From Undaria pinnatifida (taxonomy: Eukaryota; Sar; Phaeophyceae; Laminariales; Alariaceae): a stretch of 64,000 nt of DNA. This document shows positions 2,121-48,195 of the stretch, piece by piece; position 1 is the stretch's first letter, and the number at the start of each line of letters is the position of its first letter. The position numbers and the translations under genes are program-made. The stretch covers positions 7,709,919 to 7,773,918 of the forward strand of contig JABAKD010000016.1 of assembly GCA_012845835.1 (NCBI GenBank), given 5' to 3'. Below the pieces are notes generated by a model. That model was given only the letters and a program-made list of their open reading frames with translations. It was not told where the DNA came from and did not search any database.

Positions 2121-2262
2121 CTTGTATGGTCTCTTGGAGGGCCGGAAATAGGAAGGCAGAAAGTACTTCGAGGTCCGTCAAAGTCAGCACACTCGCCGCT
2201 GGCTTGCGGCCGCTGCTGCCAGTCGCTGGACATGTTCTCGCCGAATCCGGCCTTAAAATGCC
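2121..2262 (-). CDS. Gene 1, tentative exon 13 (continuation of the DUF4062 module)
   Basis: Acceptor catcttgacag|GGC is phase 0, agreeing with exon 12; donor ATACAAG|gtgtgc leaves phase 1. The frame starts GILRPDSARTCPATG, passes a basic, Ser/Gly-rich linker, and reaches SVLTLTDLEVLSAFLFPALQ. In relatives the equivalent place holds a strand-helix S-V-T-E-L-E-I, which L-T-L-T-D-L-E-V resembles. All three minus frames are largely open here, so the frame is chosen on phase and this motif. No following exon was recognised in 1-2120. Confidence 0.4.
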
Positions 2263-5200
2263 CTGTCAAGATGGTGGAGCATGATTCCAGAGATTTGGAG
2301 GGGGGGGGGGGGGGGGGGGGGGGGGGAAGTGTACTAATTTGTTGCTTGCCTTATTCATCTGACCATTGACCACGCATCATCCCTTTTGAGACGGAGATGG
2401 GGATGGGGGGGGGAGGGGGGGGTTAGGCGCGAGAGAGAGTTGCAGGAAAGCATCCATGTGCGTGTGAGGTAAGGTAAGCCAGGTAAGGTAAGCCAGGGTG
2501 CTCGGGTTAAAAAAAAATGCGCGTGATAATGTTGCTTTGGGCCTTTTGGCTCATGAACAGTGCAGGTGTTCTTATTCTATTTCCTGCTGGGGTGAGGACC
2601 GCCAAAAAAAGAACTGTTTTTCTTGATTAAAAAAATAAATAAAAGCGAAAAAAAAAAGCGAAAAAAAAAAAAAATGTACCTCTACTCGTACCGCTCGACG
2701 GGCACCCCCCCATGACCTGCAGAAGTAGGGGCAGTAGGTAGGTAGTAGTAGTGCATACAACAGTACGTCGACTAAAATTCAGTGATACATAAAAAGGGAT
2801 GCCAGTGATTTTTGAGCGGCTTCGCATGAAATGATTCGAGGGAGCCTCCGCAAAAAAAACACCTACGAGGTACCACTCCATCGTATAACACGCGTCTGTT
2901 TAGAACCCGGGTACAGCGAGCTAGAAAGCGATAAGGCTGGACACGCGCCACGGCAGAGGTGCACTAGCTCTTGTTTTTTGCCTTCTGAGGGTGGTGGCTT
3001 GGTAACAATGGTCCATACGATTTGGAGGAAACCCGGAAGTTGGACCCGCCGATGGGCAATCGCTCGGCCCAGCTGCATCATTTGGAGAAAAGTTGAAACG
3101 TGCTACCCGACGCTGAGCAATCGCTTGGCGGCGCTGTGTATCTGAACGAAACTAAAATGTGCTACCCGCTGAGCAGCCGCTTGGCCTAACTGCAATATTT
3201 GGAGAAAATAAAAAACGTGCTGCTACCCGCTGAGCAATCGCTTGGTCTAAGCAGCTGTATACAGCGCAACGTATCGCAAACTAAGGACGACACTCCGGCG
3301 AAAAAAAAGCAAAAACGATTTGTCAACGGGGGACCACAGTAAATCCTATATACTCCTAATTTTTCACGGGCACTTTTTTCGTCCTGATTTCTATGTTTCC
3401 CTAAAATATTCAAAAGCTGCAGCCTTTTTATCGTAGCACGAGTCTACATGCTCTAAGAATAGTCTTATCCAGATGTTTTTAAAGAAGATCGTGCAGCAGC
3501 GTGCGTATGCGTTGATGCCGCCGCGCGCGTCGCAAACTCTCCCTACGGAGCCGCGCGCGCGTCGTGAAAATCTCCCCTACAATACGCTTCGGACACACAC
3601 CCTCTACCCCTCTAGCCCGGGCTGTTTTGTGCTACCCGATGCTATAATCGTAACTGCTGTGTTCGACGATTCCTTCGTCTGATGTCCTGATGTCTCAAAA
3701 GGAATGAGATGAATGAAGAAGAACATACCTCAGGGAGGCCGAGGTAGGGAATGGTGTTGTTTCAAGGACAATTAGGAACAGCATCAGTGGGCGGAGTCTT
3801 GTCTAATAAGGGTAATAGGTAGAACGGCCCCGGATGCTGCTGCGGCGACGGCAATCCCTAAAATGAGTGATCGCGCCACACATAGCGTATATCACGCCGG
3901 CGGTCGCTTTAGGCTACCCTGAGTTCGTTCTGCTTTCACCTCTCCTGCTGACAGTGTGCAGATAACGAAATGGCACTTTAGCCAACGAAACGGAACGTTT
4001 AGCCAACGAAACGGCACTTTAGCCCACGAAACGGCACAATAGCCAACGAAGCGGTGCGACAGCAGACAAAACGGTACATTGGCTAACGAAACGGCACGTT
4101 AGATGTTAGACCAACACCGAGCCCCGCTTGCCGCGGAACAGGCCGAACTGTAGTCGATCCCTCTGCGATTCACACCTTCAGCCAGGGGTTTTCATGGAGG
4201 ATAGAGGCGTTGACGCTACCCGCTTGAAGTTCAACGTCGTTCAGTTCCCCAAGGCAGCACACCAGGTAGGGCCGACACCTATTGATTCCGTCCTAAGAGA
4301 AAATATCGACAGGGGGGGGGTGTAATCATATCAAGCACGGCCGCAGACTTAGGCCATCATAGATCCTAGCATCCCTACATGCCGGGACGGAGCACGTCAG
4401 ATTTTCCCCGACCAAGCAGACTTCGCGTACAGTGCAGGGGGAGGGGGGGGGGGGTACTCGTTCGTGCATATAGCCGTAGTCGTATGACCGTAGACCTTGG
4501 TAGTCGTATGATGCATGGCCGTAGTCTTCAAAGCATAGACCCTCGCATCCTTGCAGTGCCGGGACGGAGCGCGTCGGGTTTTCACACCGACCAGACAGAC
4601 GTTGCTCACACCAAGCGCGAAGCGTCGTGAGGTTGTTCAGCGAGGATGGCTTGAAATTTACGTGTACCAGCTAAAAAGTTGGCCCCAAAAACAAAGTATG
4701 ACGACGACGCGGGGTCGACATGCTGTTCCAGACGTACGTATAATGCAATGATTTTTACGATTTTCACGTTTATTGGTAGTGTATATAGATGCACGCCTTG
4801 CCTTACTTCAGCTATATACGTGTATCAACTATCGCTTGTTTTTCATTTTTTTTGTGCATTCCTCAGTCGAGGAGCCTCGTAAAAAAGACAAAAACGCCAC
4901 CAAACCATGCCACCTCTGCTGTAACAACAACAACAACAATAACAACAACAACAATGTCGTGCGCGTTCAAGGGCTGGTTGAGCGGTACAATACGCACCAG
5001 CACTGAGTTAATACCCTGAGGAGTTTGGAGGTCCTCGACGGACAGGCCCCTGCGTACATCCATGTACCCAAAGGAAACCCCTCTCGAATCCAGGATCTCC
5101 TTCAAAGCAGGGGCCGCGACAGATTTGAAGGCCTCACGTTCGAGCACCATGTCCCACCGGGTAGACAGATACAGCGTGAACTCTCTCATGTGTCTGGACA

Positions 5201-8200
5201 GGAAAAGGTATACGACAACAACAAAAAGAGGTAACGGCAACACACACCAAAACTGTCAAAATGAAGAAACAAGAGGAATGCGATTTTTCAGTGCGAATTA
5301 GGCAGGAACAAAGAAAAAACGATTTTTCTTTACTTGGATTTAGTATGAACCCCTCCTGTCTAGGTCTAGAAAATAGAGGTGGCTTCGGGGCTTTTTTTTT
5401 CTTTTCCAGATACCCCGACGTGCGCGGTATGGACGGCCAAGAAAAAAAAACACTTCCACGCGGTCCGTGAAGTGTATTCAGCGCAAGGGTGAGAAAAAAA
5501 AAAAGAAAAAAAGTACTCTCAAGTTTTTTATACTATTCTTAAGAAGTCGGCTCTCGCAGTACGAGCCTTTTTTTTACATTATTCTGAACCCCATACTTAA
5601 CCTCAATAACCTATACGTCATTTCGGAGAAGGTGGCGCCTTTTGTCACCACATGTACGGACGGGACGTTTTTCACGCCTCAGACAGATGATCAACCCCTA
5701 CGTCATGATCTAGATATTTCAGGGAAGATATGTATGATCTGTATGATCTAGCTCATGGTGCCGGGTGGAAGGCGTGCGATCTACATGATCTAGCACATGT
5801 TTCCTCGGCTGGACATGTGCTCACTAGATACGGATCCAGCACAACAGATCATAACGGCAGGTACGGGATATACCGTCGATGACCTGCATACGATCTGTAA
5901 ATGATCTGTAGATGATCTGTACACGAAATGTAGCTGATCTGTAGCTGATCTGTAGATGGTCTAGATCATGATCTGTCCGAGGTGTGAATGTTTTTTCATA
6001 CTCTAAAAATGATACCACAGCAGTAGTAGTTCCGGGCGTGTGTTGTTCCCAAAAAAAATGTTGAGTGCGGTTCAAAAAAAAAGGGGGGGGGGGGGGAAAC
6101 CCTCGGTCCGATTTCTATTAGAATAGGCACATCTATAATGTGCCCACACAGGAAAAAAAACAAAAAACACACCGCACACCTGTTACGCTGCGCTTGGTCG
6201 ACGTCGAAGCCGATGACGCACTCGAAAATGCCGGAGGATCCCACGACGGCGTCGTTTGACTCTGTCAGGAAGGCGTGCACCGCGTACTTACCGGGGAGAC
6301 AGGGACCCTCCTCGAACCGTACCTGGGTGCGTCGAAACGGTGACGACACAAAGAGAAAAAAAAATCGCTTTTTCGAGAGCGGCAAGGAAGGAAGCCAATC
6401 ATATCAAGAAAGAACAATCCGTGGTTTGGCACGCGCTACTCGCACGGCAGAGGCGCACTGGCTCTTTTTTTGTTTTTTTTTGCCTACGGAGGGTGGTGGC
6501 TTGAAGAGCCTCTACATAATACACGCCTCGGCCAATTAAAAAAACTGGTTTGGTTTTTGAACAAACCGAAAGCGAAACCCCTGCCCTAGGTGTACAAAAA
6601 CAAGAAATGACGAATTTCCGAAGATTTTTTGGGGGTTGAGGAGCCCTCGTCATTCAGAAGAACACCTGCGCCAGAAAAAAAAAAATGGTATACCCGTTCT
6701 CGTTTTGGGTTGCGAGTGAGAACGAGACGTGTGCGGCCAGCTTCTCTGGCGGGCACGGGGGCTCCTCCTCTCGAACCGTGTATACCTGGTTTCGGAACGG
6801 TGACAATTCCGAATCGCGGTCACTGCTCAAAATTGAAATATAACCCGCATACCAAGCATTCTTTCGAATCGTTTTGCGCTAGTAAACGCCCCTAACGACT
6901 GCTGCCACATATGAGGAGGGGGGGCGGGGGAAGGGTGTACTCGATACCCATTATTAATAGTGGTCGTAGTCGTATGACCATAGACCCTTGCATCCGTACT
7001 GGAGCACGTCGGGTTTTGACCAACCAGGCAGACATTGCTTGCACCAAGCACGAAGCGCCGTGGGGTGTTCGGCGAGGCGCATGAAGGGTGAACTGCAACG
7101 TTCCAAGGACCGCTCGTGAGACGGACTTCGGCACCTTGTGCCCACTTTCTTGCTTATGGATGACAGCACCAATGAGTTACTTTGTTTTTTGGTGTGGTCA
7201 CTACAGAGAGGGGGGGGCGGGGGGGGGGGGGGGGGAGGGGTACTCAATTTGTGCATGGCCGTAGTCGTATGACCATAGACCCTCGCATCCCTACCGTGTC
7301 GGGACGGAGCACGTCGGGTTTTCACCAACCAGGCAGCATGAGGGGGAGGGGATAATTGGAATCATAAGAGTTTGGGAACAAAAAAATGCAGCGGTCAGAT
7401 TGGCCACTGTGTGTTCAACGTAGTCCGTACGCTTACGAAGAACAACGAGTTTCGCGTTTGTATTGGTGCAGTATTCCTGTTTCTTATTGGTGTACCGTAG
7501 GCATGTGTCAGGCGACTCACAGCCCTACCGCGTGCCATGACCTGAATGAAAATATTGCACATCAGCCATCACAACACACCGTTCCCGCGCTGGTCCCCAG
7601 AAAGTTCTTTCGAACGATGCACGTGCCGGCTGCAGGCTCCTCTCCCCAGGCGACGACGCCAAGCCAGTCCCCGTTCGGAGCAGCGGTGTCGTAATTGAAT
7701 CGGTACTCCACCTGATTGATGGTTGGGGAAGAGGCGACGATTAACGTGGGTGTAGCCTGACAGCCGGCGTCCATAAGCCCTGCAACAACTGCCTGAAAAC
7801 TATTTGACTGATTCTGCGACACCCCTTCCCCCCCCCAAACCCAGCGATAGTTTTTTAACGATCGTTCAATGGCTGCTCGACACGAGGAAGCATTCGGGTC
7901 CCTTTATAAGGGGCCTTGCTTTTGCAGCGTCCCGGGGTCACCAGCGCGAGTGACCCACCCCCCTGCTCTATGCAGCCACAGGGTTTCGCTTTCGGTATGG
8001 ATCCCCAACGGAGTGGTTAGCTACGCCGCAATCGCCAAGCAATCGCCAAACGTATCTTTTTGTCTGCGAGGTACAGAGTCACCCTGGGGGTGCGAGTGGC
8101 TCAGACTGTGGGTATTAAAAATTGGGGGTACCCCCTCCCCGTCGTAGCCTTGATCGATGCTAAAAAAAAAAAAAAAATCGAGTCGTTCTACGGTAGAGCC

Positions 8201-11200
8201 CTTCCCCCCCAACTTTTCTTTCACGAAATCGCCGGTTTTGAAACCAGCTCCCGGCCGTAACGCCTGAAACGCGGCGCCCCTTGCCCCCGCCCCCCCCGAC
8301 ATCATCGTTCGATAGTCCTTTGCAAAACAACAAAAATAAATGGAGATTGTATTTTTTCATAGAATCATTCCTCGTGTCGAGGAGCCAATAAACGTTCGTC
8401 AAAGAAATCGCCGGTTTTGGGGGGGGGGGGGGGCTATCGTAGAATCAGTCTCTCAGGGTTTTTTTCTTTGTGTGCGAAGGACTACATATATAACGATGAC
8501 GTCGGGGAGGCAAGGGACACCGTATTTCAGGATATCCGGCCGTGAGCTGGTTTCGAAACCGGCGACGAGAAGAGTTGGGGGTGTTGTAGTATAAGATGCG
8601 TGCAACGATAGAAGAAGCAGATAGCAGTTTTCGTCTGAAATGAACGGTTTTCTGAAGGACGGGGCCCGTCAACCCAAAGGACGGGGCCCGTCAACCCAAA
8701 GGACGGGGCCCGTCAACCCAAAGGACGGGGCCCGTCAACCCTAAATCGTCGGAAATAGGCCATTTTTTTTGTCTTCTTGCTTTTCATGACTCTCGTTGTG
8801 TTGTACCCTACCTAGGCCATGGGGTTTTATTCTTATTGTTATTTTTATTTTTTTCATTTTATTTATTTTATTTTATTTTATCCGGTAGAAGTTTTGATTT
8901 TGTCCAAAGCAGTTTATAGGAGAGGTCTTAAGCTCCCGAATCGAGGGGTAGTACTAGTAAAAAACAATGTTGCGCCTCTATCGCAGCCCGCGTGTGGACT
9001 AGAACGACGCATTTACGCTATTTTTTTTGTCGTCCGACAATGTATAGCATGATGAGTGTCAACATCGATCACCCGTAAAAAAAATCCCAAAAAGTACACT
9101 TAACTTACTGAAAATTCTTCTTCTTTTTTCTTCTTTTTTTTTTTGCTTCTTGCTGCACGGCGCAAATTTGATGCGGTCAAAAAAATCGGTTGGTTTATGA
9201 ATTTCGTTCGAACTTTTGTTAATGAATCGAGATTACCCAGCCCGAAACAAAAAAAACACATCGAAAACAAACAAAACAAGGATGCGTGCATTCACGCCGT
9301 ACATGATAGAGGACAGCGCCTCTCTAAACCCCCGCGTGACCATCTTGGGATTCTCAGCGGGGAAAAAAGCTGACGACAAAAAATGGTGATCCCAGCGTGG
9401 ACTACTCCGTGATTGGGGGGAGGATAAGAGTTGATGCCCGCACTAAACTGCAAGGATTCGTGCGACACGGGGACGCATGCAACAATAAGGATAGCATTTT
9501 TCGTCTGAAAATGATTTCTGAACGACGGGGCTTCTTTGCCCCCAAAAATCGTCGGAAATATACTATTTAATAGGCTCTTTTTTTTGTTTTTATTGCGCGA
9601 CTATCGTTTTGTGTACCTGAAAAATCGGCGATGGGATTTTCTCATCCGGTCAGCAGGTTTATTTTTCTCTAAAAAAACAAAAACCGTTTTTTTTTTGGGC
9701 CAAGACTTTTTTTTTTTTTTTTTTGCACAATTATCGATTCGTGTACCTGAAAAGTCGGCGATGGGATTTTCTCATCCGGTCAGCAGGTTTTATTTTTCTC
9801 CACGAAAAAAAAACAGTTTATTTTGGGCTAAGAAGGACGTGTCTATCGTGTCTTGGCGTGTCTTGATGTGTCTTGACGTGTCTCCACGTGTATTGTCGTG
9901 TCTTGACGTGTTTTGACGTGTCTTGACGTGTCTTGACGTGTCTTGACGTGTATTGACGTGTCTTGACGTGAGTTGACGTGAGTTGACGTGTCTTGACGTG
10001 TCTTGACGTGAGTTGACGTGTATTGACGTTTCTTGACGTGTATTGACATGTATTGGCGTGTATTGACGTGTATTGACGTGTATTGACATGTATTGACGTG
10101 TCTTGACCTCCCAAAGTGAGAAACCTCAGACAAAGAAGGGGTGAACCGCTATCGTAGCGCGCGCGTCCTCGCACCGCAGCATGCAGCATGGACCTGCCTA
10201 CCCGTACTGCTGGGCGCTCGCACGCATTGCCCCTACAAGTGGATGGTTGGAAACACCCTTTAAATATTTTTGTTTTTGTTTTATCGCTGCGAATCTGACC
10301 CAAAACCATTTCTGTTTTTTTTTGTTTTTTGTCATGTTTTTTGTTTTTGTTTTGTTTTTGCACCGCGCAACGCGGTCAAGCAAGTCGGTTGGTTGTGTGT
10401 GTTTCGTTTTTGGGCATGACAATTCGATACAACTCAGCCAAAAAAAAACGAAAAAGTGAAAACACAAAAAAAAAGGCATTCGTGCATTCACGTCGTGCAG
10501 AAGACGGAGATGGCAACTGCTCGTGGAGCTACAGGGTCGCCTAGACTCTTGCCACCTCCACCAATACCCGAGAGAACACGACGAACAAAAACCCCGATGT
10601 GATACCGTACCACACTCCCATTGCGACCTACCTGGCATAGACCAATAGAGCTATAAGTCGGCAGATTTTCACGACAAATAACTAGTTGCTAGTCCCCGTT
10701 CGTCAACTAACTGACTTTACTCAGAAAATAGGCTGGCAAAGCCGGTTGATTGATGGCCAGCCGACTTGCCGACTTAAGTCGGGCGAGCGAAGGGAGCCAA
10801 AAATTATCTCCTCCCCGGCGGAGGGGGCTCCGGCCCCGAAAAAAGAAAAAATGGCTTCCCGCATTAAAACAACTTTTCTACACGTATGGAAACCCAGTGT
10901 AAATCGGATAACCCGACACCTACGTGGAACCGACTAAACTATTTAGTCCGACTAGTAACTAAAGTAGTTTGTGACTTAGGGCGTTCCCACTCACAGCTTC
11001 GAAAAAAAAAAAAAAAAAAAGTAAACCTAAAAATGGTATAGCATTTTTCCGCTGCGAGGAACTTGTGCGAAGCAGGATACACCTGGTATCATATTGATGT
11101 TGCATGTGTCAAGTTGTCTGCGTTGGCGAATGATGGGAGGATTTGGCGAGCGGAAAGGACGAATTTCCAGGGCTTTAGCACGGATCATAAAAAACCGGCC

Positions 11201-14200
11201 CACGGATCAGATCGGGTCGGTTCACAACGCTTAAAAGGCTCGTGGGTCAAGTCGGGGCGGATCGAGAGGTGTTTGAGCCTCTCATGGGTCGGATCTGGTC
11301 GGGTCTGGTCGGGGCCGGGGCGGGCGTGGCGGGAGGTGTTTGAGCCTCTCACGGATCGGGGCGGGTCGGATCCGGTCGGGTCGGGTCGGGTCGGGTCGGG
11401 TCGGGTCGGGTCGGGTCGGGTCGGGTCGGGTCGGGTCGGGTCGGGTCGGGTCGGGTCGGGTCGGGTCGGGTCGGGTCGGGTCGGGTCGGGTCGGGTCGGG
11501 TCGGGTCGGGTCGGATCGGGTCGGGTCGGGTCGGGTCGGGTCGGGTCGGGTCGGGTCGGGTCGGGTCGGGTCGGGTCGGGTCGGGTCGGGTCGGGTCGGG
11601 TCGGGTCGGGTCGGGTCGGGTCGGGTCGGGTCGGGTCGGGTCGGGTCGGGTCGGGTCGGGTCGGGTCGGGTCGGGTCGGGTCGGGCCGGGTCGGGTCTCT
11701 TTGTAACATTACGGGTCGAACCGGGTCATCCTTACCCGATCCGACCAGCGAGACTTGATCCAACCCGTGAAAAAGTCCTGATCACTGAATTGCTGTCGGC
11801 GGGGCACGTTAAAACCTGTGCTTAAAACCGGGCTTCGGCCGGGTCCCTCCCGTTTTTATATTATTTTTACGTGCGGCGGAAATTACAGTAGAAGCTCTCA
11901 CTTTTCGCTCGCTTGCAATAAGACCGAAAGAAAAAGGCATATCTAACAAAAAAAAAAAAAAACTCTTGAAGGAATCCCAAGCCACCACCCTCTTCTACGA
12001 GTACGTATTAATAGTTTTTTTTTTTCAAATCCGACATGCATGGCGGCGAGTGTGTGGTGTCTCGTCGCTTTCTGTTGGATATTTACCTCCAGGGGCGAAC
12101 CACATTCCAGCCGTGGAAAACCCGGGTCGAGACCAGCGGCGGCACGACCACCGGGGGTGATAATCGGTGGATTTCGTTGACCGCGCTGGACGATCTTGAG
12201 GTCGACGTGGGCCATGTCAATCTTTTTTTGCACGGGGAAGAAAAGGACACACGCATACACGTGGCACACAAAGGGGGGGGGGGGGCGGCGTACACACATG
12301 CAAGGGTCAACTGTTAGGAATGCCGCCCTGTAATACCAGAACAAGGAAGAGCTTAGCCTTAGCCCGTTTAGAAGCGCGCCCCACGTTGTTTGCAGACAAA
12401 TCACTTGGAATTAGTACAGGTTGGATATGTACCCACCTTTTGGGAGACCAACTACTCGGGGTAATTAGTGTGGCTTTACTTTCGAGTCATCCCACGCCAA
12501 GGGCTGCAATTTTTTTGGGCCACATACTTCTGGCCCGTTGAGGTCCTCGACCGTTGTAGAAACATCGGTCAGAATCATAGTTTATTCGTGCATTCGTTCA
12601 TAAGGACGAGCGCATAGCGCGTAGAAAACCGAACGTTGGTCGGTTTTGCGCGAGCGAATGTCTTCGAAAGCCATTCTTCGGGTGAGATCATGAGCTAGCT
12701 CCTCTTCTTTTAGAGCCCAGTAACTTCTGCTTCACCCCTGGTGTGGCGACAAAATACCCGGGAGAAAAACTGTGGTTTCGTTTTTTTCCCGGTAGTTCAA
12801 GGATTAAGACGAAGCTAATTCATTGTGCATTGAGCTGACGGGGGGGGGGGGGGGGACGACCTGGGTAGACTGGCCGACGCTCATATTGTGGAATGGGACC
12901 GTGTGTTTCTGTCGAGTTCTATTTCACCCTGCCGACTGACTCCCCGGCGCTCAGAATCGCGGGTGGTCTAGGAAATCTGGTTGCTCATAACGCGGCACGC
13001 GATCGTGCGTTCTCATTTCCTTTTGTTTGTCGTCCTGCCGACTCTCCCCGCTAGGAGGTGGGGGCTATTTGGCTTACCACAAATGGTGGTCTCACGCGTT
13101 CCCTGTCCTCGTCACCACCTACAGGGACACATGCCATGGTTGGTAAAAGGGGGGGGGGGGGGGGGGGACTATTTTTCTTTCTGAATGTTCCCTCCTTTGA
13201 GAAACTCGCCTTTGAAAACTGAAACTGTGTAACCCCCAGCGAACAATCCCCAGGGCAAGGTATACAACTCCCATAGCCCAAGTATGCAACTCTCATGGCT
13301 TAGATATACATGTGTATATCGAGAAACGAGAACATCGCGAAAGCAAACGATAACTCCAGTTGAGATGGGGGTAGATTGCGAGTCTAATTGCGGAGTCTCC
13401 CCGTTAGCCAGAACGGGTTTTGCCGAAAAGTGCTGCACACCCTCGTAGCAGACCAAGGCTACCGTAGGCTCGGGGAGATGCTATGATGATGTTATCATGC
13501 ACCCCTTTTTCCCAACCGATTTTTTTAGTTTTTGTTTTTGAGCCACTCACGACGAGTGACTCGGTACTCACCGACAAAAGAAGACATTTTAGGCGATTTT
13601 CTCTTGGCGCGGCGTATAGACAAACCACGACGTTGCGGATTGCGTATCGCAAAATGAAAAGAGCAGCTTTAGCGCCGCACTCCCGATATGAAGACCAAAC
13701 ACTTGGAGTTAGACTGGTAAATGGGTTAAAACCGTCAAGGAACATGGAGGTCACTCGCGCGAGTAACCCCGAGCCATCATTGCCAAAAGAGTCCCCAAAA
13801 CATAGGCCCCCTACGATAGGTAGCCAGAACCTGGATGCGTTGGAGGGGGAGATAAGTAAATTAGACGTATGTGACATGGATTAGTTTGGTAGACTAGAGA
13901 GTAGCGAGAAAACGGTCGCGCTATCCTAGAAGATAGATGGTGGCCGCAGACGGCGAAACAGGACGGGGATAGGATAAGCAAACCTTTTTTATGTAATAAA
14001 TGGAAAAAGCGTACTGAGTGCCCAAAATGTTGGAGGTGTCCTCTACTAGCAGTAGGAACGGTGCTCCCGTCTCGAAAGGGATGCGTGTGGTCAATGTTCT
14101 AATGACTAAGGCAAGAGCAACAAATGAGTACGCCCCCCCCCCCTCACCCCCCCCTCCCCCCATCCCCTCCCCCCATCCCCCCCCCCTCATCCCCTCCCCC

Positions 14201-16263
14201 CATCCCCCCCCCCTCATCCCCTTCCCCCCCCCCCCCCCCCCCCCCCATCCCCCGAAGGTTGCGGTTCGTGAAGCGGCTCAACCTCTAGAGCTACAGCAGC
14301 ATTGTAATAATGTACCAGGAACGGGTCTTCCAGAATGGTGTGCCTGCCAACAGTCGCGATCGCAACCGAGACAAAATTTGGGCCACTGCAAACGCGCAAA
14401 TGGCGTCTGCAGGCTGTATGGATGGACGGTCGTTCGTTGCCGTGCACCTCCGGCCGAACATCGCCAGCTGGAGCGTGTCCGCTCTGACCCTGGGAGCGAG
14501 CGCACTGAAGTCGGGTATCTAGCGCCCAAGCAAGGATTAATGGATTAATGGCAGCGATGGAGGGCAGCCCCTCGGAGTCAGCGCGCTAGAGGTAGAAGTT
14601 TTCGGCTAAAACATTTTGTTTTGTTTCTTTTCGATAGAGGCAGCCCTTTCGGAGGCTATTTTATCCCAAAACCGTCGGAAAGTTACCTTCTTTTTTTTTT
14701 GCAATATAGCTTTTTTTGGGACACCTATGTCATGGTTTTTGTTCACCTTTTTTTTTGTATATACAAGCTTTCGGTTTGCTCAAAATTCAGCATTTTTTCC
14801 TTTGGGGGGGGTGGGGTATATATAGAGCTTTTTGCCAGTGCAGGGTCGCAGAAACCAAAAGGTGCAGCGGAAGTTTCTGTGCTCCTAACATGGTTGGAAA
14901 ATGTTTTTTGCGCGAAACATGGCTTCGAAGACACTTCGTTTCGCGCAAAAAACAGACCCAACAGTTTCTATGCACTACTCATAGTCCCAAGACAATATAT
15001 ATATACTATAGTGTTCTTCTGCTTCTCCTTTACTTGTCATTTATTGTAAGTGTTGGATTAGATGAGGCATCCTGCCGCAAGCAAAAGGTCTTCGCCCGGG
15101 ATAAACGCCCGCACTAAGCCCACAATCTCGAGCTTAGTACGGTACCGTAAATCCCTATTGGCAAAGATTGTGCCTGAAGACATTATTTTTGCCAATCTGG
15201 GTGGGAGGGAGGGTCAGATTATGTACCGCCACCTCAATTTGTTTCGCATTTGGTCCGGCGACAAAAACATTGCTTCGGAGGGGCGACAGCATACTCCGTT
15301 TATTATCGGATCTCAAATCATGGAAACATATTTTATTCGGTTTTAATTTCTCTCCGATTTTAGTATTATATAAAAATTTGAAGTACACTGCGGCTGTGAG
15401 ATCGAACGTTTCGTCGAAACTCATCTTCGCAACAAGCTGCGTGTAATACTCCGATCGCGCGCATTTTACTGGGTGCGTGTCCTCATTAAGGAGACGTAAG
15501 TCGGAGACTCCCTTTAGAACTACTTACAGCGTAGTAGCTTGTACCTGGGTCAACAGGGCGATGCCAATCAATCTGTCCACCGAAACTATAAAACCCGTTG
15601 CGGCAAGTGATTGAGACCCCCACTTGCCTTGAAAATCTCGCTTTGCGCCACACAACAGGTGCTCCCTCCCAAGAAATATCGCGCTACGTAGGCTCCCTCC
15701 TGCACCACAATGCCTTCGTTCACCTCCACCACTCCCTGAGGGGGGACAAAAAAGGGGTGCGCCCGTACGGGAACGTCATCAGTTGTATCGCGGGTTCCGA
15801 TTGTCATGGTCTTCCGCTGCATGGGGGGGCACAAACAAAAAGCGAAACAGGCGGATTCGGAAGAAATAGTCTGAATTCAGTCTGGCTCGGAAAGACTTTT
15901 TCCATAGGCACGTCGCCCGGCGTTTTACGCTCTCCGCGCCGTCGACAAAAAGACAAATAGCTTGGAATTTCTTCCCGGGGGGAGGGGGGGGGGGGGAGGG
16001 GGGGGGGGGGGGGGGGGGGGGGTCTTCGCTTGCGTGTGTTGTGCGGTGGCTTATTGCGCCTTTACCGGCTTTCGGATTTCATTCGACGGGGTGTAGTTTT
16101 CATGCGTGTTGTCATGCGGTGTGATACCCTGTTCACCTTTTGTTTCCCCCACCCACCCCGTCGTTCGACGCGACGCGGAATCACACACCATTTCGCGTGA
16201 CCACAGCACGTGTGTTCCCACTTCCAGACCCCCCTGAGCTCGTGTTGGGAATTTATTCTGTTT

Positions 16264-16346
<83 letters not shown>

Positions 16347-19300
16347 GCATTTTTCGCCATCCATTCAACGAGCAGCACAAGCTTCAACATCGATCACGCA
16401 CAAAACATTCGTCTAACCTTATTCTTGATTTTAGTTGCAATGTTCCCGGAGGAGTTCGGCTTTTTCTCTCTCTTTCTACATGCGCAGCAGGAGGCTTTCC
16501 CGACAAGGGGTCGCGCTGTGGGCGTACCCTATTTTCTGGTTTCGGCCTACCCAAAGGGAAACGAAGAAAATGTATACCTGGTATGTTTTAATGTTTTTTT
16601 TGTCATGAGTTAGCCATCTAACAGCAATGTACAGCACGACCTTCAACATCGATTTCCCAGAAAACATTCCCAGAAAAGTATCGTGCCCCCCCCTTTCCCT
16701 CCTCCTCCCCCAAAAATTTCTATGTAATAAATGGAAAAAGCGTAATGAGCGCCCAAATGTTGGAGGTGTCTCTATTGGGAGCAGAAACGGTGCTCCGTCT
16801 CGACAGAGATGCGTGGTCAATGGTCTAATGGCTAAGACAAGCAATAAATGAGCGCACCCTTTCCCCCCCCCCTCCCCTCCTCCCCTCCCCCTTCCCCTCC
16901 CCCCCCCGCCCCTCCTTCACCTCCTCCGCCCCCGTCCCCCCCCCCACTTCCCCTCCCCCTTTTCCCCCCCACCCACCCCCTCCCGCTACTTTTTCTCACC
17001 TCATTCTCCGGCGGCAACGTTCTCCATCCAACCATCGTTTCCCTGGGACTGCCACTACCGCTCTCCGGTTTTTCCCTCTCCGTTTTCTTCGTCTCCCTAT
17101 TGGTCTTCTCCACTATTGCAGTCGTTGCAACCGGCTCCTCCTTGCAGTGCTTCGGATCTCCACCCTGCGCTACTGCCCCTTCAAAATTCGGGGAACGTTG
17201 GTCAGACGCTGTCGTGGCGTCACGGTTACCGCGAAAACTCCCTCGCGTGTTTTCGTCGCCGTCCTTGATGCCCCCACTGCTCACGCAAATTTCGTGCTCC
17301 AAAAATAATTTCGATGCCTCTCCTCCTCCTCCTCCTCCTCCTCCTCCTCCTTCTTCTCCTCCTCCTCCTCCTCCTCCCGGCGCCATCTTTAATTCTCTGC
17401 TCCCCCTCCCTTTGACGCCACCGTCTTTGCTGGCATTGGCTGCTGTCGGATGGCTCGCCTGGGGCCCGACAGCAGTATGCGGCGCTGCAGTAGCAGTGCT
17501 AATAGAGGTGTTGTTTTGACCATCGGGATACCGGGAAGATTTCTTGCTGACGCGGTTCTGTGTTTCTGTAGTGGTGGTGGTGGTGGTGGGGCGGGGGGTG
17601 GCATCATGATGCTCGCGCGAGATGCTGGAGGCGTTACGATTGGCGGTGGCGGTGGTGGCATCATGGAGAGAGAACAGGCCTATCCAGTCCTTCGCCGGGT
17701 GTCGGTGGTCGGGGCTGTCCTTGTGACGATACCTGGTCATGAGGACGGGACACCCGGTACAGGGCATCGGAAAAAAAACAGAAAACAACACCAAAAGCTA
17801 GGTTTCTTAAAACAGAAATAACATCAAAGGCTGTTTTTTTTTTCTTGGCATACAGCACGAGACACCCATGAAAAACAGAAAGTGTCGGCATCGTGGAGGA
17901 GTCGTTCAACGGCAGTAGCCCCCTCCACCCCAACTTTTATCTAACGAAATCGTCGGTTTTTGAAACCAGCTTCCGGCCGTATCTCCTGAAACATGATGCC
18001 CCTTGCCACCCCGACGTCATCGTTTGATAGTCCGTCGCAAGACAAGAAAATAAATGAAGACTTTTTTTTTTATAGATCATTCTTCCTCGTGTCAATAAGC
18101 AGACATAAAACGTTCGCAAATGAAAATCGCCGTTTTTTTTTGTTTTGGGGGGGCGGGCGTACTCATTCGATGCTTGCCTTAGTCATCTGGCCATTGACCA
18201 CGCATCCCTTTCGAGACGGAGCACCGTTCCTCCAACGTTTGGGCGCTCATTACGCTTCTTCCGTACATTACACAGGAACTGTTTGCTTATCCTATCCCCG
18301 TCCTGTTTCGCCGTCTGCGGCCACCATCTATCTCCTAGGATGACAGCGATCGTTTTCTCGCTACTCTCGAGTCTACCAAACTCTTCCATGTCACATACGT
18401 CTAATGTTCTCGTCTCCTCCTCTAACGCAGCCCGTTCCTCTTTGTATATTTGGCATTCTCCTACTATGTGAGTCCTACTCTCTGTTGTTGTGCCACACGG
18501 GCACATATTTGTAGCCACGTCCTTCTCCTCCCGCCTACTGGTATATCTCTTTCTTCTTTCTGATAGGTCCAGGCCCCCTACACGAAGTCGCAGTATCAGC
18601 GTTTTCGCGTAGTCCATTGGGCCGTGCAGATACGTTTTCATTCCAACATCTTCCCTCAAATCCTCGCATATCCCTAAGTGTTTCTCCTCTTTCACGTTAT
18701 TTCTTAGCGCTAGCCTTTCCCTTTTTTATATTCCTTCTTTTACTTGTGTCTTAAATCCGCCAAACTTCTCTATAAACAGTACCTCTTCTTGGTCTGCCCC
18801 TACATCCTTCTATGCTTTCTCGACTACGTTATCCGATCTTATTCCAGCTCGCCCTTTTGTTGTTTTCTCCCATGCAGCCCTTTCAACGTTTTTTTTTTTT
18901 TGGGGGGGGGGGTATCGTAGAACCAGTCGGAGGAAGAACAAGACAATCCAGTTCTTAGCGGGGTGCCGGCGCTCGGTGTTTATCTCTGTGGCGGTATATA
19001 CCTTATCAAAAACGGAACATACAGCAGTCTAGGACACAGAAATAAAGAACCCGCCTGCGCGAAGCAATTGTTGTAGGCAATCTAGAGGGCAATCAGCACT
19101 ACTAACTCGACCCGCGCCATGTAGAGGGATCACTCCTGTACGGTATGGCCTTGCCAAAGCGGCTTCACGGGCGCTATAGCGAGGGCAACCTGCACCATTC
19201 AACCGGTAGTTACAGAGGGACCGCTGCTGTTGCAACCCAAATATGCGCTCACGAGTATCTGACGGTAAAGCGCTCTCCGAGAACACCGCTGGCCGCGGGA

Positions 19301-22300
19301 CCCAGCTCCACCGAAACAACCGCTCGGAAGTCCTCTTTCTTGGGGAAAGAGCTCAGCTGCCGCATGGACTCCTGCAAGACCTGCTAAAAAAATTAATAAA
19401 CTTTGTGTGAGGGGTTGTACTTTTTGGGCCAAGCGTTTCTGCACCTCAAAGTGAGGACCTACCGGCCAGTCGGGTACTTTTACGAGGCTGTTTGTTTCAC
19501 CAAGGGCTAGCGAATACCTGGGCTAGCGAAGTGTTTGTCGGATTGCGCGAACGAATGCCATTTTCGAATCCGTGGTTTCGGGTGACATGTTGAGCTGCTC
19601 TCCCCCCTTCCCCCCCCCCCCCCTGTGCGACAATGATGCGCATGCATGCATAAGCTTCAGCGACGATCACTCTCTTTGTCTCGGGAAGAAGAGGTCAAAA
19701 GCTACCTCTGTGGATGATTCCTGCCAAAACTTGCTGTTCATAAATAAAACACACAAATTACGACGCTCGCCAATGTATGGCAGAGGTACCAGGTTCGTAC
19801 GAAATACCTTCTTAGCGGGGGGAGGAAAAAAAGAAAAAAGCGTTTTCTGGATGGCGGGAAATTTCTTTTATTTTTCTCTATTTTCCTGAAACATATTTTA
19901 TCGTTGTATACCTTGGCCAGGGGATTGGTTATTTTATTTTATTTTATTTTTCTTGGGGGGGGGTACTTCTTTGTTGCTTGCCTTAGTCATCTGGCCATTG
20001 ACCACGCATCCCTTTCGAGACGGAGCACCGTTCCTACTCCTGATAGAGACACCTCCAACGTTTGGGCGCTCATTACGATTTTTCGATATATTACATAGAA
20101 ACTGTGTGCTTATCCTATCCCCGTCCTGTTTCGCCGTCTGCGGCCACCATCTATCTCCTAGGATAACGATCGCTTTCTCGCTACTCTCGAGTCTACCAAA
20201 CTCTTCCATGTCACATACGTCTAATGTTCTCGTCTCCTCCTCTAACGCAGCCCGTTCCTCCTTGTATATTTCACATTCTCCTACTATGTGAGTCCTACTC
20301 TCTATTGTTGTGCCACACGGGCACATATTTGTAGCCACGTCCTCCTCCTCCCGCCTACTGGTATATCTCTTTCTTCTTTCTGATGGGTCCAGGCCCCCTA
20401 CACGAAATCGCAGTGCCAGCGTTTTCGCGTAGTCCATGGGGCCGTGCAGATACGTTTTCATTCCAACATCTTCCCTCAACCCCCCGTATACCTCTTAAGT
20501 GTTTCTCCTCTTTCACGTTATTTCTTAGCGCTAGCCTTTCCCTTTCTTTTAATATTTATTTTGCTTCCGTCTTGTACCCGCCAAACTTCTCTATAGACAG
20601 TACATCTTCTTGGTCTGCCCCTACATCCTTCCATGCTTTCTCGACTACGTTATCCCATCTTATTCCAGCTCGCCCTTTTGTTATTTTCTTCCATACAACC
20701 CTATCAGCGATGGCTGGCAACCTCTTTTCAGGCGTATTCTCTACTTTATATTGCCATTTCAACTTTCTCACGTCTCTACTAATACTTGTTTTAAGTGGGT
20801 ACATTCCTAGTTCTGCTCTTAACACTGTATTACTCGTCGTACTTGAGCATCCTAGTATCTTTTTAGCTGCTGTCATCTGCACCGTTTCCAGTTGTTCTAC
20901 GAGCTTCGCGTTCCCTTCCCGTGCTCCTCCTGCATACTCCAACTTTGGCACAATCACATTCATCAGAATACATATTTTTAATCCTAGTGTCAAGATGCGG
21001 GTCTGTTAGGATCGCATCCCTGTGATTTACCCTTTCCCATTACTTTCACTTTGTGTGCATCCCAAAGAGCAGGACTTTCAGGTCATTTTGGGGGGGGGGG
21101 AGGGTTAACTCTCTTCCCCGTCAGTTTTTGGAGTTCAACGAAGGAACCTCAGACAAGAAAAAAACTGGCGAACCTCTACCCGCAGCATGCGTCACGTGTT
21201 TGTTATTGCTGCCCAGTCTCCCCAAAAAAGGCGGGGGGGGGTGCCAGAGCAAAAAAACCCACCGCCATCATTTCGTTCCAGGATATGAGCCAAAGTCATC
21301 GTGACCCGCCTTACATCGGTATGTATACCGTTTTACTCAGACCGCCTTGTTGAGGGGACCCTTCTACTGCTGTTGTGCTTCTTCTGTTTTTTTGCCATCC
21401 GACAATGATGAGTGCGATTCCCACGGTCGCGCCAGGCGATCGTGGCGACCTTATGTCGGGACAGCGCCTTACTCGGACCGCCTTATCGAGGGACCTCCTA
21501 CTGCTGTCGTTGTTGTCATCCGGCGATGGCGAGTGCAAGTTGCGCCAAGCGATTGTCACCGCCTTGTATCTGGAGACCGCCTTAGTCCTACCGCCTTGCG
21601 GAGGGACTCCCTTGCTATCTACCTGGTATTTGTCTTTGCCAACAGCATGGCATGAGCTTCAACGTCGATCACTCGTAACAAAAACATCCCCTCCCCAAAA
21701 AAAATAAAGCAGAAGAACGAACGCCAAGGGAAAAAGAAAAAAAAAAACTCCAAAAAAATAAGTGTTGGTGCTATTCTCGCCTTCTGGTCATGTGCCGCAT
21801 GATGAGACGTTAACGTCGGTCACTCGCACGAAACATTTTGACGAGTGCTACGATAGATAGAGGTGAGCACTTTTCCGGCCAGAAGTTATATTTGTCGGAA
21901 TGACGGGGCTCCTTAACGAAAAACTCGTCGGAAAATGTTCATTCTTGTTTTTTTTCGCAAAAAATATTCGTTTTTTGTAAATAACCTGGGACACGGGAGG
22001 GTTAGCTGATCGATTTTTTTGCACTTTCAGCTTGCTCAAAAAAATCAAATCAGTTTTCTTTTGGGAGGGGGGAGGGGCGAGGTGATAGAGCTCCTTTAGA
22101 GCCCCAAAATCTCTCCCTAGAGAAACTTCAAGAAAACCTGTCCAATCAAAGGGTTTCCAGTCGTGAAGGCATTAAGCCACCACCCTCAGAAGGCGAAAAC
22201 AAAAGTGGTACACTTTTACCGTAGAAAGTGGAATATAAATAAAAAAAAGTGGAAACCCTAGAAAACACTGTTGTGTGTGGTAGATGACGCATGGGATCCC

Positions 22301-25300
22301 GTATTCCCCGCTTCTGAAGAGCACTTACCTTCAAGGCTGCAGGGTTTCGCACGTCCCGCTCTAACGTGGTCATGCACGAGCGGGCGGCAAGGAGGTAGTC
22401 GTGTCGTTTGAGCGAAACTGTCGCCCGCTGTACCGCCTCGTCGGTGTTGAAACCCGCGCTGCCACCTGTGTCGTTCGGTTGGACCTGAAATGGGCACATT
22501 CGTTTGTGGCGGTTGGTGTTTTGCGAGAGGATCCAAACGCCGGACGGGACCATTCAGCGGAAGGAGGTGGGGGGGGAGAGGGGGAGGCGGGGCGGGAGGG
22601 GACCCATTTGTTGCTTGGCTTTATACCACTAATCTCTTTCGAGACGGTTCACCTCATGGCCCTATCAGGGCAACATACCTTAGGTCATAGAAACGCCGCC
22701 AGAACGTCAAGGGTTATTCCGCGGCAGCAGTTCTCTCAGAAAAAAAAATGTATACTTCTTTATATATACGCACTTGAGCTATCTATGCAGATCGAGGATT
22801 TCGTCTAAACTCGTCTTTGCAGACTGCGCGTGATACTTCGCTTGCGCGTGATGCGATAGCATATGACTCCTTGTGCAGGAGACAGCCCGCAAGCTGTTGC
22901 CCCGGATGGCAGGACCCACGCTCGTCAGAACATACCTCAGGATCGAAGAAACGAAATACTCTGGACCAAAAAAAGGAGATCGCCGTAATATCGCCAAGGG
23001 GCAATCCTCCGGCAACATTTTGTTGACGCAACAACGCCATCACGGGGGGGGTAAGACCTACACGCTCTTCAGAAACACACCTCAGGATCGAGAAACGAAG
23101 TTGTATGCCACAAGTTTGTAGGGTCGACTTTTTCCGCCCCCCCTTTCCCCCCCCCCCGTGCGCCTCGACCACCGCCGCCGCCGCTCCGCAAACCTCCTCC
23201 TCCCCCAGCATCCAGCTCTTCCGCGTCTCCATCGCCCTCCTCGAATATTTCTCCACGCGCGAAGGCGAGCTCCCTTTCGTGCACGCGTTGTCGTGCCCTG
23301 TCATCGGGGTGGGTTGGGGCGGCGTTGGGGCGGGTGAAAGCGTTGCCGTGCATGGATGGCCGTAGCCTGTCAGAGCTTAGACCCTCGCATCCCCTCTAAG
23401 ACCGGGACGGATCACGTCGGGTTTTCATCGACCAGGCAGGCATTGGTTGCACCAAGGGGGGGGGGGGAATCATGTCGTGCCTGGCCTTAGCCCTTAAGAC
23501 CATAGACCCACGCATCTCTTGGTGGGCGTGCAATACTTTTGCCTCTGTGGGCCAAAGGCTCGTGAACGCCTTTGCCACTGAAAACCCTTTTGGGGGGAGA
23601 AAATCACTTGAAGTTAGTATAGGGAGGGGTTTGGGGTGCTCTAAAGGGGCTAAACGGATGCGCTCCCCATGCGTGCAACTACCGGTTGGTAAGATAATTT
23701 TCATGAGCATGTGTTTGGTTTCGGACTGCTGCATGTAGCGCGTGGAAACGTTTGGTCGGGTTAAAACAACGAAGAGCGAAATGGTCTTCGAAGGCGTGTG
23801 TCGGGTGAGATGTCTGAGCCCCCCCCCTCATGGCGAGAGAGCCCTGAAAAAAAAAAAAAAAATCCGATTTGAACAGAACCCATGAACGGCCAGCGTAAGG
23901 TACACACACACAAAAAGAAACAGGTTGGAAAAGAAATAAGATCCGACGTTCCGACGATCTTGGGGTAACACCTTCACTACTGGAAACCCTTTTACTTGAA
24001 TTTAGTGTAGGGAGGGGTGAAGGGGGGTTAAGGAGCGTTAGGGAGGGTCAACGTGGGTATATAGGGGAAAAAAAACTCGTATGGACACGAGGCCAGGTGT
24101 GTATGTAACGAAGGCCGGCACAGGGGGGCTGTAGCTCACGGGTATGGAGCTTGGAGCTTGGCCCGCAGAATAGAAAGGAAATTTACACCAGAGCATGTAC
24201 GCGCAAGATGGTGTATATATGAGACGTGTCGGAATGGTTGCACGGTGGTACGTACGACATCCCGTTGCATGCAATCGGTATGTACGTAGAGTATATCGTA
24301 GAGTATAAACAAAAAAGTTGCACTCATATTAACGCATTTACATCTATCTGCAAACCCCCTTTTTTTTACAAATTTACTTGGAATTAGAATAGGTAGGGGT
24401 TTGGGGGCTCTAAAGGGGTTAATACCGCCATCGTAGCATGAAAGTGGTTGACAACTATTGTCTCCCTCAGCCAGATACAAAGTACTAACGTCTTGAAATA
24501 GTATCAATTAAGTCGTTGTCACCCCCCACCCTATATATATATACTCGTCTCGTCTTCCTCGAACGCGATGTTTTTTTTTGTTAGTATACCTCCCACGCTA
24601 CAGCACTGCTTATGATGTGGTATACATTCGCTTTAGCTTGCGCTCTTTCTCTGGTCAAGCTTATGTCGTTCAATATTTTGGGGGGTCGGCCAGTAAAGCG
24701 GTGGCGTGCGTGCTAGAGCAATATGAGCGCCTTATTGGGGGAAGCCGCCTTATTCGTGTCCACGTCATGAGTGATATTCCCCAGAACGTGCCAAGCGATT
24801 TTGAACGTCTTGTATCGGGATGCAGCCTTATGTAGGGATACCGCCTTGTTGGGGAATCCCCTACCACTGTACCGAAACCGCGCAGCTTCCTTGCAGGCAG
24901 TTGTGGACGTACTGACAGTGCAAAGGTTGATTGTATCGTGTTACGATTTAGTACTGACCTTGCTGTAGCTAAAAACAAGAGACATGAAAAAAAAAATTAA
25001 AACACAATAAATCTAGTGCTGGCCTTACTTGCCATTGGCCTTGTTCATAGTTGCGACCATTACAAAGCGCGATCAACAAAAGACAAACATGCGCTGGGGA
25101 TCTATCTACAACGAAACTCACCAGCACAGCCCCCTCCACGAGTAGTGTCCAGGAACACACACAATCGGCCATGGAAATTAAGTGTTAACGGGCGTTGAAA
25201 GGATAGGCAAAACAAGCCTTCAATCAAATATATGTATACTATACGAAGCATACGTAGCATTCTGTAGCACCATGTAATCGTGTGGGGATCATGTGAATGC

Positions 25301-26886
25301 TGTAGTACCAGGTATGAGCAAAGAAAAACTGAACCAATCATCAATCAAACAGAGGTGATACATACTACGGCAGTATGTGCTGTGGCGCCATGGAAAATCA
25401 ACAGGCCACGCGTGTTCGGATATTTTTTGCTGACCTCTCTGTTGCGAGCAGTCTTCGAATGTTTGCTTATTCCACACGTAGGTTCTAAATATGCGCTTTG
25501 TGTTCTGTGACGTTCTTGCTGCGATGGGTGTTTGGTTTTGGATTATTCTGCGTTGTTTGCTCTAATAGACTGTTCGATTATTCTGTGATGCTTGCTAGAC
25601 GTTCGTTATTTTAGTGATCATCTCTTCAACGATATTTGCTGGAATGTCTATGTATTCTGCGAAGTCTGCTAGATGTTTATTTTTCTTCGCACTTTACTGG
25701 TTTGTCGGCTGTAATGTGTGCTGGATGTTGCTTATTCTTCGATGCCTTTTAGCTAAATGTTTGCTTGTTCTGCGTTGTTTTTCGCCGAATGTTTGCTAAT
25801 TCTGCGATGTTTTTTTGCGGAGTGTTTGATTATTCTGCGACGTTCTTTGCTGAGTGTTTGCTTATCCCGCGATGTTTAACGTTTGTCACTGGTGTTCTTT
25901 TCTTGTCTTCGGTGACCTTTCTGCTTCGAGTTTTTTTTTTTTTTTATCCTCCGGCGGATGGGGAAAAATAAACCTTTAGAGCCCCCGAACCCCTCTTTAT
26001 ACTAACTTCAAGTAAATTTGTCCCCCAAAAAAGAGGTTTCCAGTTGTAAAGGCGTTAAGCTCACCACACTCTCTGCTTCGACGTTTTGTTGACTGTTCGC
26101 TTGTTCTGCGTATGTTTTGCCGGATGCTTCCTTTCATGTTTTGACTGACCTTTCCGCTGCGGGCTTGGCCCACTTTTGCAGAAGAAGGTTGACCAAGTCT
26201 GGTTCACCCTCTCCGGGTTTTTTTTTCGCCGACCTGTCCGTCTTGAACGTCCCAACCGCCCGTTCCAACTCCGATATCCGGAGTCCCACCGTGCGAAGGT
26301 GGAGCTGAGTTGGGTTACATGCAAAGGTCAGGGGTACACGCATCGTTAGATATCAGACAAAAAAGTGATGATTGATCGGGATCGTCTACGTACGCACGGT
26401 AGATCTTATTAAAGTTTTGTTGTGCTTCATTAATCTGGAATAGTTGATCGAACGTTGATCCTTTCGCTCTGCATCCAATCACACGACTATACTCTCTTAA
26501 TCTTCCACACTCTTGACGTATTCAATCCTCGTGCAATCCCTCCCCAAAGTACAGGCTTTCGCTTCAACTCAAACCCCTAACAAACATGCCTTCCAAGCAT
26601 ATTAAGATCCACTCCCGCCCCGAAAACCCCAGATTTCCTACGTTCAATCTTACACATGATAAAAGTTCTTTTGTCCCCCACATCGAACAAGGATGAAGTG
26701 GAAAAATGGGTTACAGCCATTTTACCACCACAAGCATTCCACACTAATTTCGAGTAGTTTTCTTTTTAAAAAAAACGAGAGCGGAGTACTAAAAGGGTTT
26801 TAATTAAAGACGAAGAAAAATACATTGTTTCCCTTGATAATTAAGGTCTGTACGAACTATAGGTAGTTGGCCAGAGGGGGAGGGAA

Positions 26887-26919
<33 letters not shown>

Positions 26920-48030: not shown

Positions 48031-48195
48031 CGTGTGCGTGCCGGATCGCGCGAAGTACGGGGTGAAGCCCTTCCAAAGGCTGGTGACGCCCTCCGCCTTC
48101 ACCACGTACGACAAGGTCTGCAACGTCGACCTGTACTTCAACGGCGCCCCGTCCTTGCTCGGCGCCTGGCTCTGCATCCGAGTCTTGGCCGAGTC
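48031..48195 (-). CDS. SLC25A11: Carrier gene exon 6 (third signature and matrix loop 3)
   Basis: Acceptor gcaaccacctacag|GAC and donor CACACG|gtggga, phase 0, 55 codons. Following PL in exon 5, the opening DSAKTRMQSQ completes P-L-D-S-A-K-T-R, the third carrier signature. A longer loop (APSKDGAPLKYRST) leads to the matrix helix YVVKAEGVTSLWKGFTPYFA and ends RSGTHT. In relatives this is followed only by the last half of helix 6, so one short terminal exon is missing. A candidate at 44396-44440 (frame FHVFVERLYSE) has the right look but the wrong phase. Confidence 0.9.

Follow-up and report, generated by a model that had tools for sequence, protein, structure and literature searches.

The window analysed here, a 64,000-nucleotide stretch of the genome of the brown alga Undaria pinnatifida (contig C22, positions 7709919-7773918, so that genome position equals 7709918 plus window position), carries in its left part a minus-strand gene that runs on past the left edge. 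Judged by strand, order and phase of the exons, this gene probably joins a SKICH-like part and a DUF4062 domain in one protein. The first-pass annotation, made from the sequence alone, had proposed ten phase-compatible minus-strand exons, and these stand: E1 to E10 (Table 1) join without a stop into 690 residues when E6 is taken from the AG at 7792, and into 728 residues when E11, which like E11b and E12 lies beyond the edge and is given in C22 coordinates, is added. Splice sites are ordinary except at E4, which has a GC donor, and at E5, where the AG of the acceptor follows a poor tract made of A (aaaaaaag). Splicing from E4 to E6 is also in phase without E5, so that E5 need not exist.

Codon usage was scored with a model built from 533 codons of other nearby genes (mitochondrial carrier, myosin and ankyrin exons), and each of 13 exons (E0 to E11, and E12) was set against 2,000 random open stretches as long as itself. 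The assigned frame was the best of six in 10 of the 13 exons, the misses being E0, E5 and E10. Scores were high for E1, E2, E4, E6, E7 and E11 (at most 31 of the 2,000 random stretches as good), fair for E8 and E9 (69 and 96) and ordinary for E5 (165), E3 (199), E0 (215), E10 (387) and E12 (513).

A DUF4062 domain had been named at the end of these exons by the first-pass annotation. Because the Pfam DUF4062 model (PF13271) matched neither the spliced protein nor the domain, we built our own profile from bacterial loci. A fragment of TEP1 led to three plasmid records, and the N-terminus of one of them (L002) served as the query for bacterial loci; the scan of genome contigs with the L002 protein gave 107 stretches, 93 of them relatives, from which 80 loci were kept. 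We picked 44 of the 80 by hand and dropped one as short, leaving 43 bacterial rows, and a longer profile was made from 32 of the 80. Against the 43-row profile of bacterial DUF4062-STAND proteins, spliced E8-E10 scored 34.8 bits, and none of 20,000 shuffles did as well (best shuffle 11.8). The frames of E9 and E8 ranked first and second among the 2,019 open reading frames (ORFs) of at least 20 residues in the window (E 0.0047 and 0.16), and a scan of 4,561 ORFs from 144 kb put them in the same two places (E 0.011 and 0.36). Addition of E11, which carries the last strand of the domain, lifted the score to 40.2 bits; this exon sits 5.7 kb beyond E10, fits its phase exactly and reads ...TDHAFFYTRAP.... 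By profile comparison, the DUF4062 homology of E8-E11 is thus confirmed. The start motif of the domain is also present at its predicted place, but with the spacing S-x-x-x-D-M (STRWDM) instead of S-x-x-D-M. Sequence searches of the PDB with the kelp DUF4062 or with either sandwich domain returned chance matches or none, viral contigs yielded seven pattern stretches and no relatives, and among 72,556 plasmid records there were five matches to the kelp DUF4062, all with E of at least 3.

Upstream of DUF4062 the same annotation had recognised two SKICH-type beta-sandwiches, a claim that holds better for copy A (E2-E4) than for copy B (E6 and E7). The sandwich motifs lie where they had been placed, except that the closing S-S-x-x-F holds for copy B (SSGIF) and not for copy A, which reads QSEIF there. 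In a Pfam search of the untrimmed protein with E values allowed up to 10, SKICH (PF17751) alone came up (E 0.17, 12.9 bits). Trimmed copy A reached 14.6 bits (E 0.048), copy B matched no family, and the two copies joined, with the insert of copy A removed, reached 17.0 bits (E 0.0089). With a two-chain profile made from the CALCOCO2 and TAX1BP1 PDB chains, copy A scored 10.9 bits and one of 10,000 shuffles was as good, against 609 of 10,000 for copy B. Pairwise comparison with CALCOCO2 and TAX1BP1 gave 0 of 2,000 shuffles as good in each case for copy A, and 79 and 275 of 2,000 for copy B. The two copies are weakly alike (85 of 5,000 shuffles as good), and hhalign of A and B against the CALCOCO2/TAX1BP1 pair gave a probability of 29 over 28 columns. 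When the SKICH profile was run over the 4,561 raw ORFs, E3 took fifth place (E 9.8), an unrelated ORF headed the list (E 0.13), and E6 and E7 were not among the matches listed. Much of the SKICH signal resides in KDWIG(L/I)F, the motif that had drawn the first-pass annotation, and it is therefore not independent support; purple acid phosphatases are another sandwich family with DWIG motifs. On these comparisons a SKICH identity of the two copies is plausible. The SKICH domains of CALCOCO2/NDP52 and TAX1BP1 (7eaa, 4nlh) share with kelp KDWIGLF the KDW(I/V)GIF core and the preceding strand, whereas copy A is interrupted by some 200 inserted residues and has, by eye, neither the YYTFxW nor the QFCYV stretch, and the likeness of copy B to them is not significant. 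Ahead of the sandwiches, E1 can be read by eye as a TPR helix pair (KRHDYLLAARSCMTTLERDVRNPAALKVL); Pfam gave no TPR family for E1-E2 or E0-E1-E2, and the TPR-like repeats of the first-pass annotation were not borne out.

Beyond the window edge, an exon scan put E12 next, and E11 and E12 were out of phase until E11b was placed between them. The codon at the E11b-E12 junction, G|AC, encodes Asp and gives ...MVLEDLSRAIEEMHPL...; the junction reads MVLEDLSRAIEEMHPLRTAPDRLDD. At about this place the bacterial proteins L001 and L085 have VLGDL and VFDHL, and the kelp sequence resembles what we take to be the linker of DUF4062-NACHT proteins. We regard E11b as a likely exon and a possible linker. 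Within E12, LADYLGDTSTIGMVVVDQPGTGMTTALLGFL falls on the Walker A of the longer profile, with Met in place of Lys; the aligned residues, QPGTGMTT, depart from GxxxxGK(S/T), and no exact Walker A motif occurs in 42 kb of the minus strand. About 0.2 kb upstream of E12 (C22:7704500-7704387) its first part recurs in a 66% identical copy that has no acceptor AG at the corresponding position, and we read this partial copy as a decayed or alternative exon. Over the 35 codons taken as alignable, E12 and the copy show 9 differences at first, 2 at second and 17 at third codon positions (dN 0.19, dS 1.10), so the E12 frame has been under selection as protein. Pfam searches of minus-strand frames in three of eight downstream 10-kb stretches and in window positions 22300-32298 gave only CDC45 (0.026) and a pentapeptide repeat (0.33), both below cut-off, and seven single exons or candidates downstream matched no Pfam family. 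The earlier suggestion of a STAND-type protein agrees with E11, the possible linker and the P-loop-like stretch downstream, but the ATPase switch that it included gains no support, since the Lys is lost and the stretch scores at E 9.2. The protein is likely to be STAND-shaped.

A May 2026 preprint shows DUF4062 to be a TIR-like NADase fold that is active in a bacterial antiphage system and in human TEP1 (PMC13174449), a property of which the first-pass annotation, though it named the domain rightly, made no use. According to the same preprint, E1008 is the catalytic residue of TEP1, and its pocket contains R908, R954 and R976; replacing R908 and R976 by alanine reduces the activity of TEP1, and purified human NPHP3, NWD1 and NWD2 are inactive as NADases (PMC13174449). 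We checked the TEP1 residue numbers on PDB chain 11gz_A, where all four land on the named letters. The catalytic Glu is kept in the kelp domain (TDLEV versus TEMEV) and in 43 of 43 bacterial rows. In the profile alignment R908, R954 and R976 face W, Q and L of the kelp domain; at R976 all 43 bacterial rows have Arg, against the kelp Leu. The RYGW stretch is replaced as well, and S-T, D-M, E-R and D-x-R-x-G are kept. With the pocket Arg replaced and RYGW gone, we consider an NPHP3-like scaffold more probable, on sequence grounds, than a domain active as an NADase.

Among the closest known systems is TEP1, a vault protein with the order DUF4062-NACHT-WD40. The two DUF4062 domains align over their length, but on the kelp side the three pocket Arg and RYGY are missing, SKICH-like domains stand ahead, and Pfam showed no WD40 family in the three downstream 10-kb stretches scanned. 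NPHP3, NWD1 and NWD2 (DUF4062-NACHT) likewise have DUF4062 followed by a P-loop module; they are not known to have paired SKICH-like domains. Bacterial DUF4062-STAND proteins (L001, L002, L006-L085) match by profile across the kelp domain, but their rows keep LRWG and Q/E-R-x-G-W where the kelp domain has VRRG and ELND.

Table 1. Exons assigned to the DUF4062 gene, in window positions unless marked C22.
Feature	Position	Strand	Evidence and remarks
E0, possible first exon with ATG (MHGNAFTRPN...), doubtful	23081..23350	-	Longer open stretch 23395-23081; exon-scan score 23.3; phase 0 into E1; other frame higher by independent codon model
E1, helical, TPR-like by eye (DYLLAARSCMTTLERDVRNPAAL)	22329..22484	-	Splice sites, phase; assigned frame best of six; no Pfam TPR
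E2, opening strands of SKICH-like copy A (FTVRYS)	19253..19380	-	Splice sites, phase, codon frame
E3, copy A core motif KDWIGLF and low-complexity insert of ~200 residues	17000..17732	-	Splicing, codon frame; Pfam SKICH E 0.17 on untrimmed protein
E4, closing strands of copy A (GAYVARYFLGG...SEIF)	15628..15735	-	GC donor AAG|GCAAGT; codon frame
E5, linker, doubtful	12087..12221	-	Poor acceptor; another of the six frames scores higher
E6, SKICH-like copy B, core motif GDWLGVV	7580..7792	-	Motif, codon frame; acceptor AG at 7792
E7, closing strands of copy B (GKYAVHAFL...SSGIF)	6180..6322	-	Ends in phase 2; splicing, codon frame
E8, DUF4062 start (LYLSTRWDMVLERE ... MDVRRGLS)	4998..5193	-	Bacterial DUF4062 profile, rank 2 of 2,019 ORFs, E 0.16
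E9, DUF4062 (INRCRPYLVCCLGE ... HENPWLK), without conserved RYGW stretch	4176..4292	-	Same profile, rank 1 of 2,019 ORFs, E 0.0047
E10, DUF4062 helix with predicted catalytic Glu (LTLTDLEVL)	2121..2262	-	Aligns to TEP1 E1008; codon frame not best of six
E11, last DUF4062 strand, outside window	C22:7706368-7706256	-	Phase fits E10; profile gain
E11b, possible linker exon, outside window, 148 bases	C22:7705038-7704891	-	Joins E11 to E12 in phase
E12, P-loop-like stretch, outside window, 746 bases	C22:7704287-7703542	-	Exon scan, longer DUF4062-STAND profile

Within the genome (511,146,479 bases in 68 contigs) the parts of this gene found essentially themselves. All three places returned by the DUF4062 part were the gene's own exons, six of the seven returned by the sandwich part were the gene itself (the seventh at E 7.2), and the four returned by E11b-E12 were the gene and its partial copy. 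The Pfam DUF4062 model matched 0 places in the genome (its control was positive in 3 of 14 genomes), and a TEP1 query revealed no second DUF4062 gene; empty answers of this kind are no proof of absence. One place found with a bacterial query (E 0.19) was considered as a second DUF4062 and judged a chance match, its frame having stops and giving no profile match. The NACHT part of L085 hit one place at E 2.1. For SKICH, the Pfam model matched nowhere in the genome, and neither did its control; a DNA pattern for DWIG-x-(F/Y) occurred at 38 sites versus 29 for the reversed control, and among the 30 of the 38 that we read, none besides the gene's own exon was convincing by eye (L110 and L114 undecided). 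In the one open-access library covered, we found no paper on DUF4062 and SKICH together and none on a SKICH domain in a brown alga, and a search combining SKICH, DUF4062 and stramenopiles gave none by title among the matches listed. The first-pass statement that no protein with this domain order had been described fits that library search. A 2024 paper deals with the ROCO genes of brown algae, which are candidate immune receptors, and with the shuffling of their exons (PMC11378527).

The introns of the gene hold two near-identical minus-strand ORFs (18183-18725 and 19934-20494) with a neighbour at 20556-21005; by eye they resemble a retroelement tail, and Pfam gave no match for 19934-20494 or 20556-21005. 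A dispersed element with 'gatgcgagggtctatggtc' and 'aaaacccgacgtgctccgtcc', recognised by eye and often beside poly-C tracts, recurs for example at 4380-4640, 6980-7100, 7280-7340 and 23400-23500. Long arrays of a 5-base unit (CGGGT/GACCC) at 11352-11697, 27466-27562 and 29613-29863 are open in several frames on both strands. Further right, window positions 48031-62400 contain minus-strand mitochondrial carrier exons (near 62.2 kb, 56588-56427, 55663-55553, 54938-54800 and 48195-48031), which when joined match Pfam Mito_carr at 2.3e-41. An ORF at 30255-30581, considered as NAA15-like, had no Pfam support. On C22, about 50-55 kb and 77 kb to the left of the window, lie neighbouring genes, with ankyrin-repeat exons on the minus strand and exons for a myosin head on the plus strand.

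We conclude, at a probability of about 0.5, that the locus holds one gene of about 29 kb or more encoding a STAND-shaped, NPHP3-like scaffold or sensor whose N-terminal half is new. From its N-terminus the protein would consist of a short helical segment, two SKICH-like beta-sandwiches, the TIR-like DUF4062, a linker and a P-loop-like module without the lysine. The sandwiches may dock it on partners or membranes, DUF4062 and the P-loop module may act less as enzymes than as folds for interaction or oligomerisation, and the whole would act as a scaffold or sensor of the kind represented by NPHP3. The replaced pocket Arg, the change of the Walker A Lys to Met and the inactivity of human NPHP3, NWD1 and NWD2 argue together for a scaffold rather than an enzyme.

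Several observations weigh against this conclusion. The Pfam DUF4062 model is silent on the domain, and the three Pfam SKICH scores (12.9, 14.6 and 17.0 bits) all lie below the gathering score of 23.4 bits. E11 was first found as a weak match of the longer profile (E 2.2, second of 557 downstream ORFs) and read by eye, and E11b, second by score among the candidates listed, was chosen by eye. A loose linker motif occurs in 24 of 352 phase-fitting candidates (15 through the same donor, 9 through others), and the linker region does not beat shuffles in comparison with L085 (1,139 of 2,000 as good). The Walker A stretch ranks third among 4,561 ORFs at E 9.2, and 38 of 2,000 shuffles match L085 as well as it does; four patterns for Walker B and later NACHT motifs found nothing in about 26 kb of the minus strand, where exons may have been missed. 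By codon usage neither E10 nor E12 stands out (387 and 513 of the 2,000 random open stretches scored as well). For the active site, the loss of R908 means little, as this position is Asn in 41 of the 43 bacterial rows, and the kept catalytic Glu argues for some enzyme function. Finally, the junctions E1-E2, E4-E6 (across 7.8 kb) and E7-E8 are drawn from strand, order and phase only, and a single transcript of all the exons is predicted from these. That single-transcript claim and the SKICH name are the weakest links of the account.

The kept Glu leads to a first alternative, in which the same architecture would form an active effector: the NTPase-like module or the sandwiches would cluster DUF4062, which would cut NAD+ as do TEP1 and the bacterial Swarozyc. 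Both that Glu, invariant in the bacterial rows, and the conserved S-T, D-M, E-R and D-x-R-x-G would suit an enzyme, and the preprint reports activity for the bacterial system and human TEP1 (PMC13174449). However, R976, invariant in the bacterial rows, is Leu, RYGW is gone and the Walker A Lys is Met, and by the same source TEP1 activity drops with alanine at R908 and R976 (PMC13174449); we hold such an effector to be unlikely. We give a like, low weight to two same-strand neighbour genes, one encoding a copy A protein (E1-E4) and the other copy B, DUF4062 and the rest. The 7.8 kb between E4 and E6, the weak E5 and the poor resemblance of copy B, both to SKICH on its own and to copy A, would speak for separate genes, but the phases of E4 and E6 agree whether or not E5 lies between them, A and B are similarly built and stand in tandem (as good in 85 of 5,000 shuffles), and the 5.7-kb gap between E10 and E11 indicates that long introns occur. 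A decaying pseudogene of a once canonical DUF4062-STAND protein is improbable: it would account for the lost RYGW and Walker A Lys, for the partial E12 copy without an acceptor AG and for the failure of genome searches to find a second DUF4062, but joined E1-E11 and E8-E12 have no stop, codon use is in frame for most exons and dN/dS is low where the E12 start is compared with its copy.

The scaffold or sensor of NPHP3 kind thus remains our preferred account. SKICH-type docking domains recruit selective-autophagy machinery in animals, and a bolder idea, to which we assign the least weight of all, is that the gene encodes a seaweed immune or quality-control receptor combining tandem SKICH-type docking domains with a working TIR-like NADase on a STAND frame. 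If that very improbable idea were true, recognition of cargo or damage would feed into NAD+ depletion. A brown-algal DUF4062 with a kept Glu, a lost Arg pocket and a different N-terminus would help to separate the features of an enzyme from those of a scaffold in this family, and the gene would be one more candidate among the receptors of kelps, a repertoire about which little is known.

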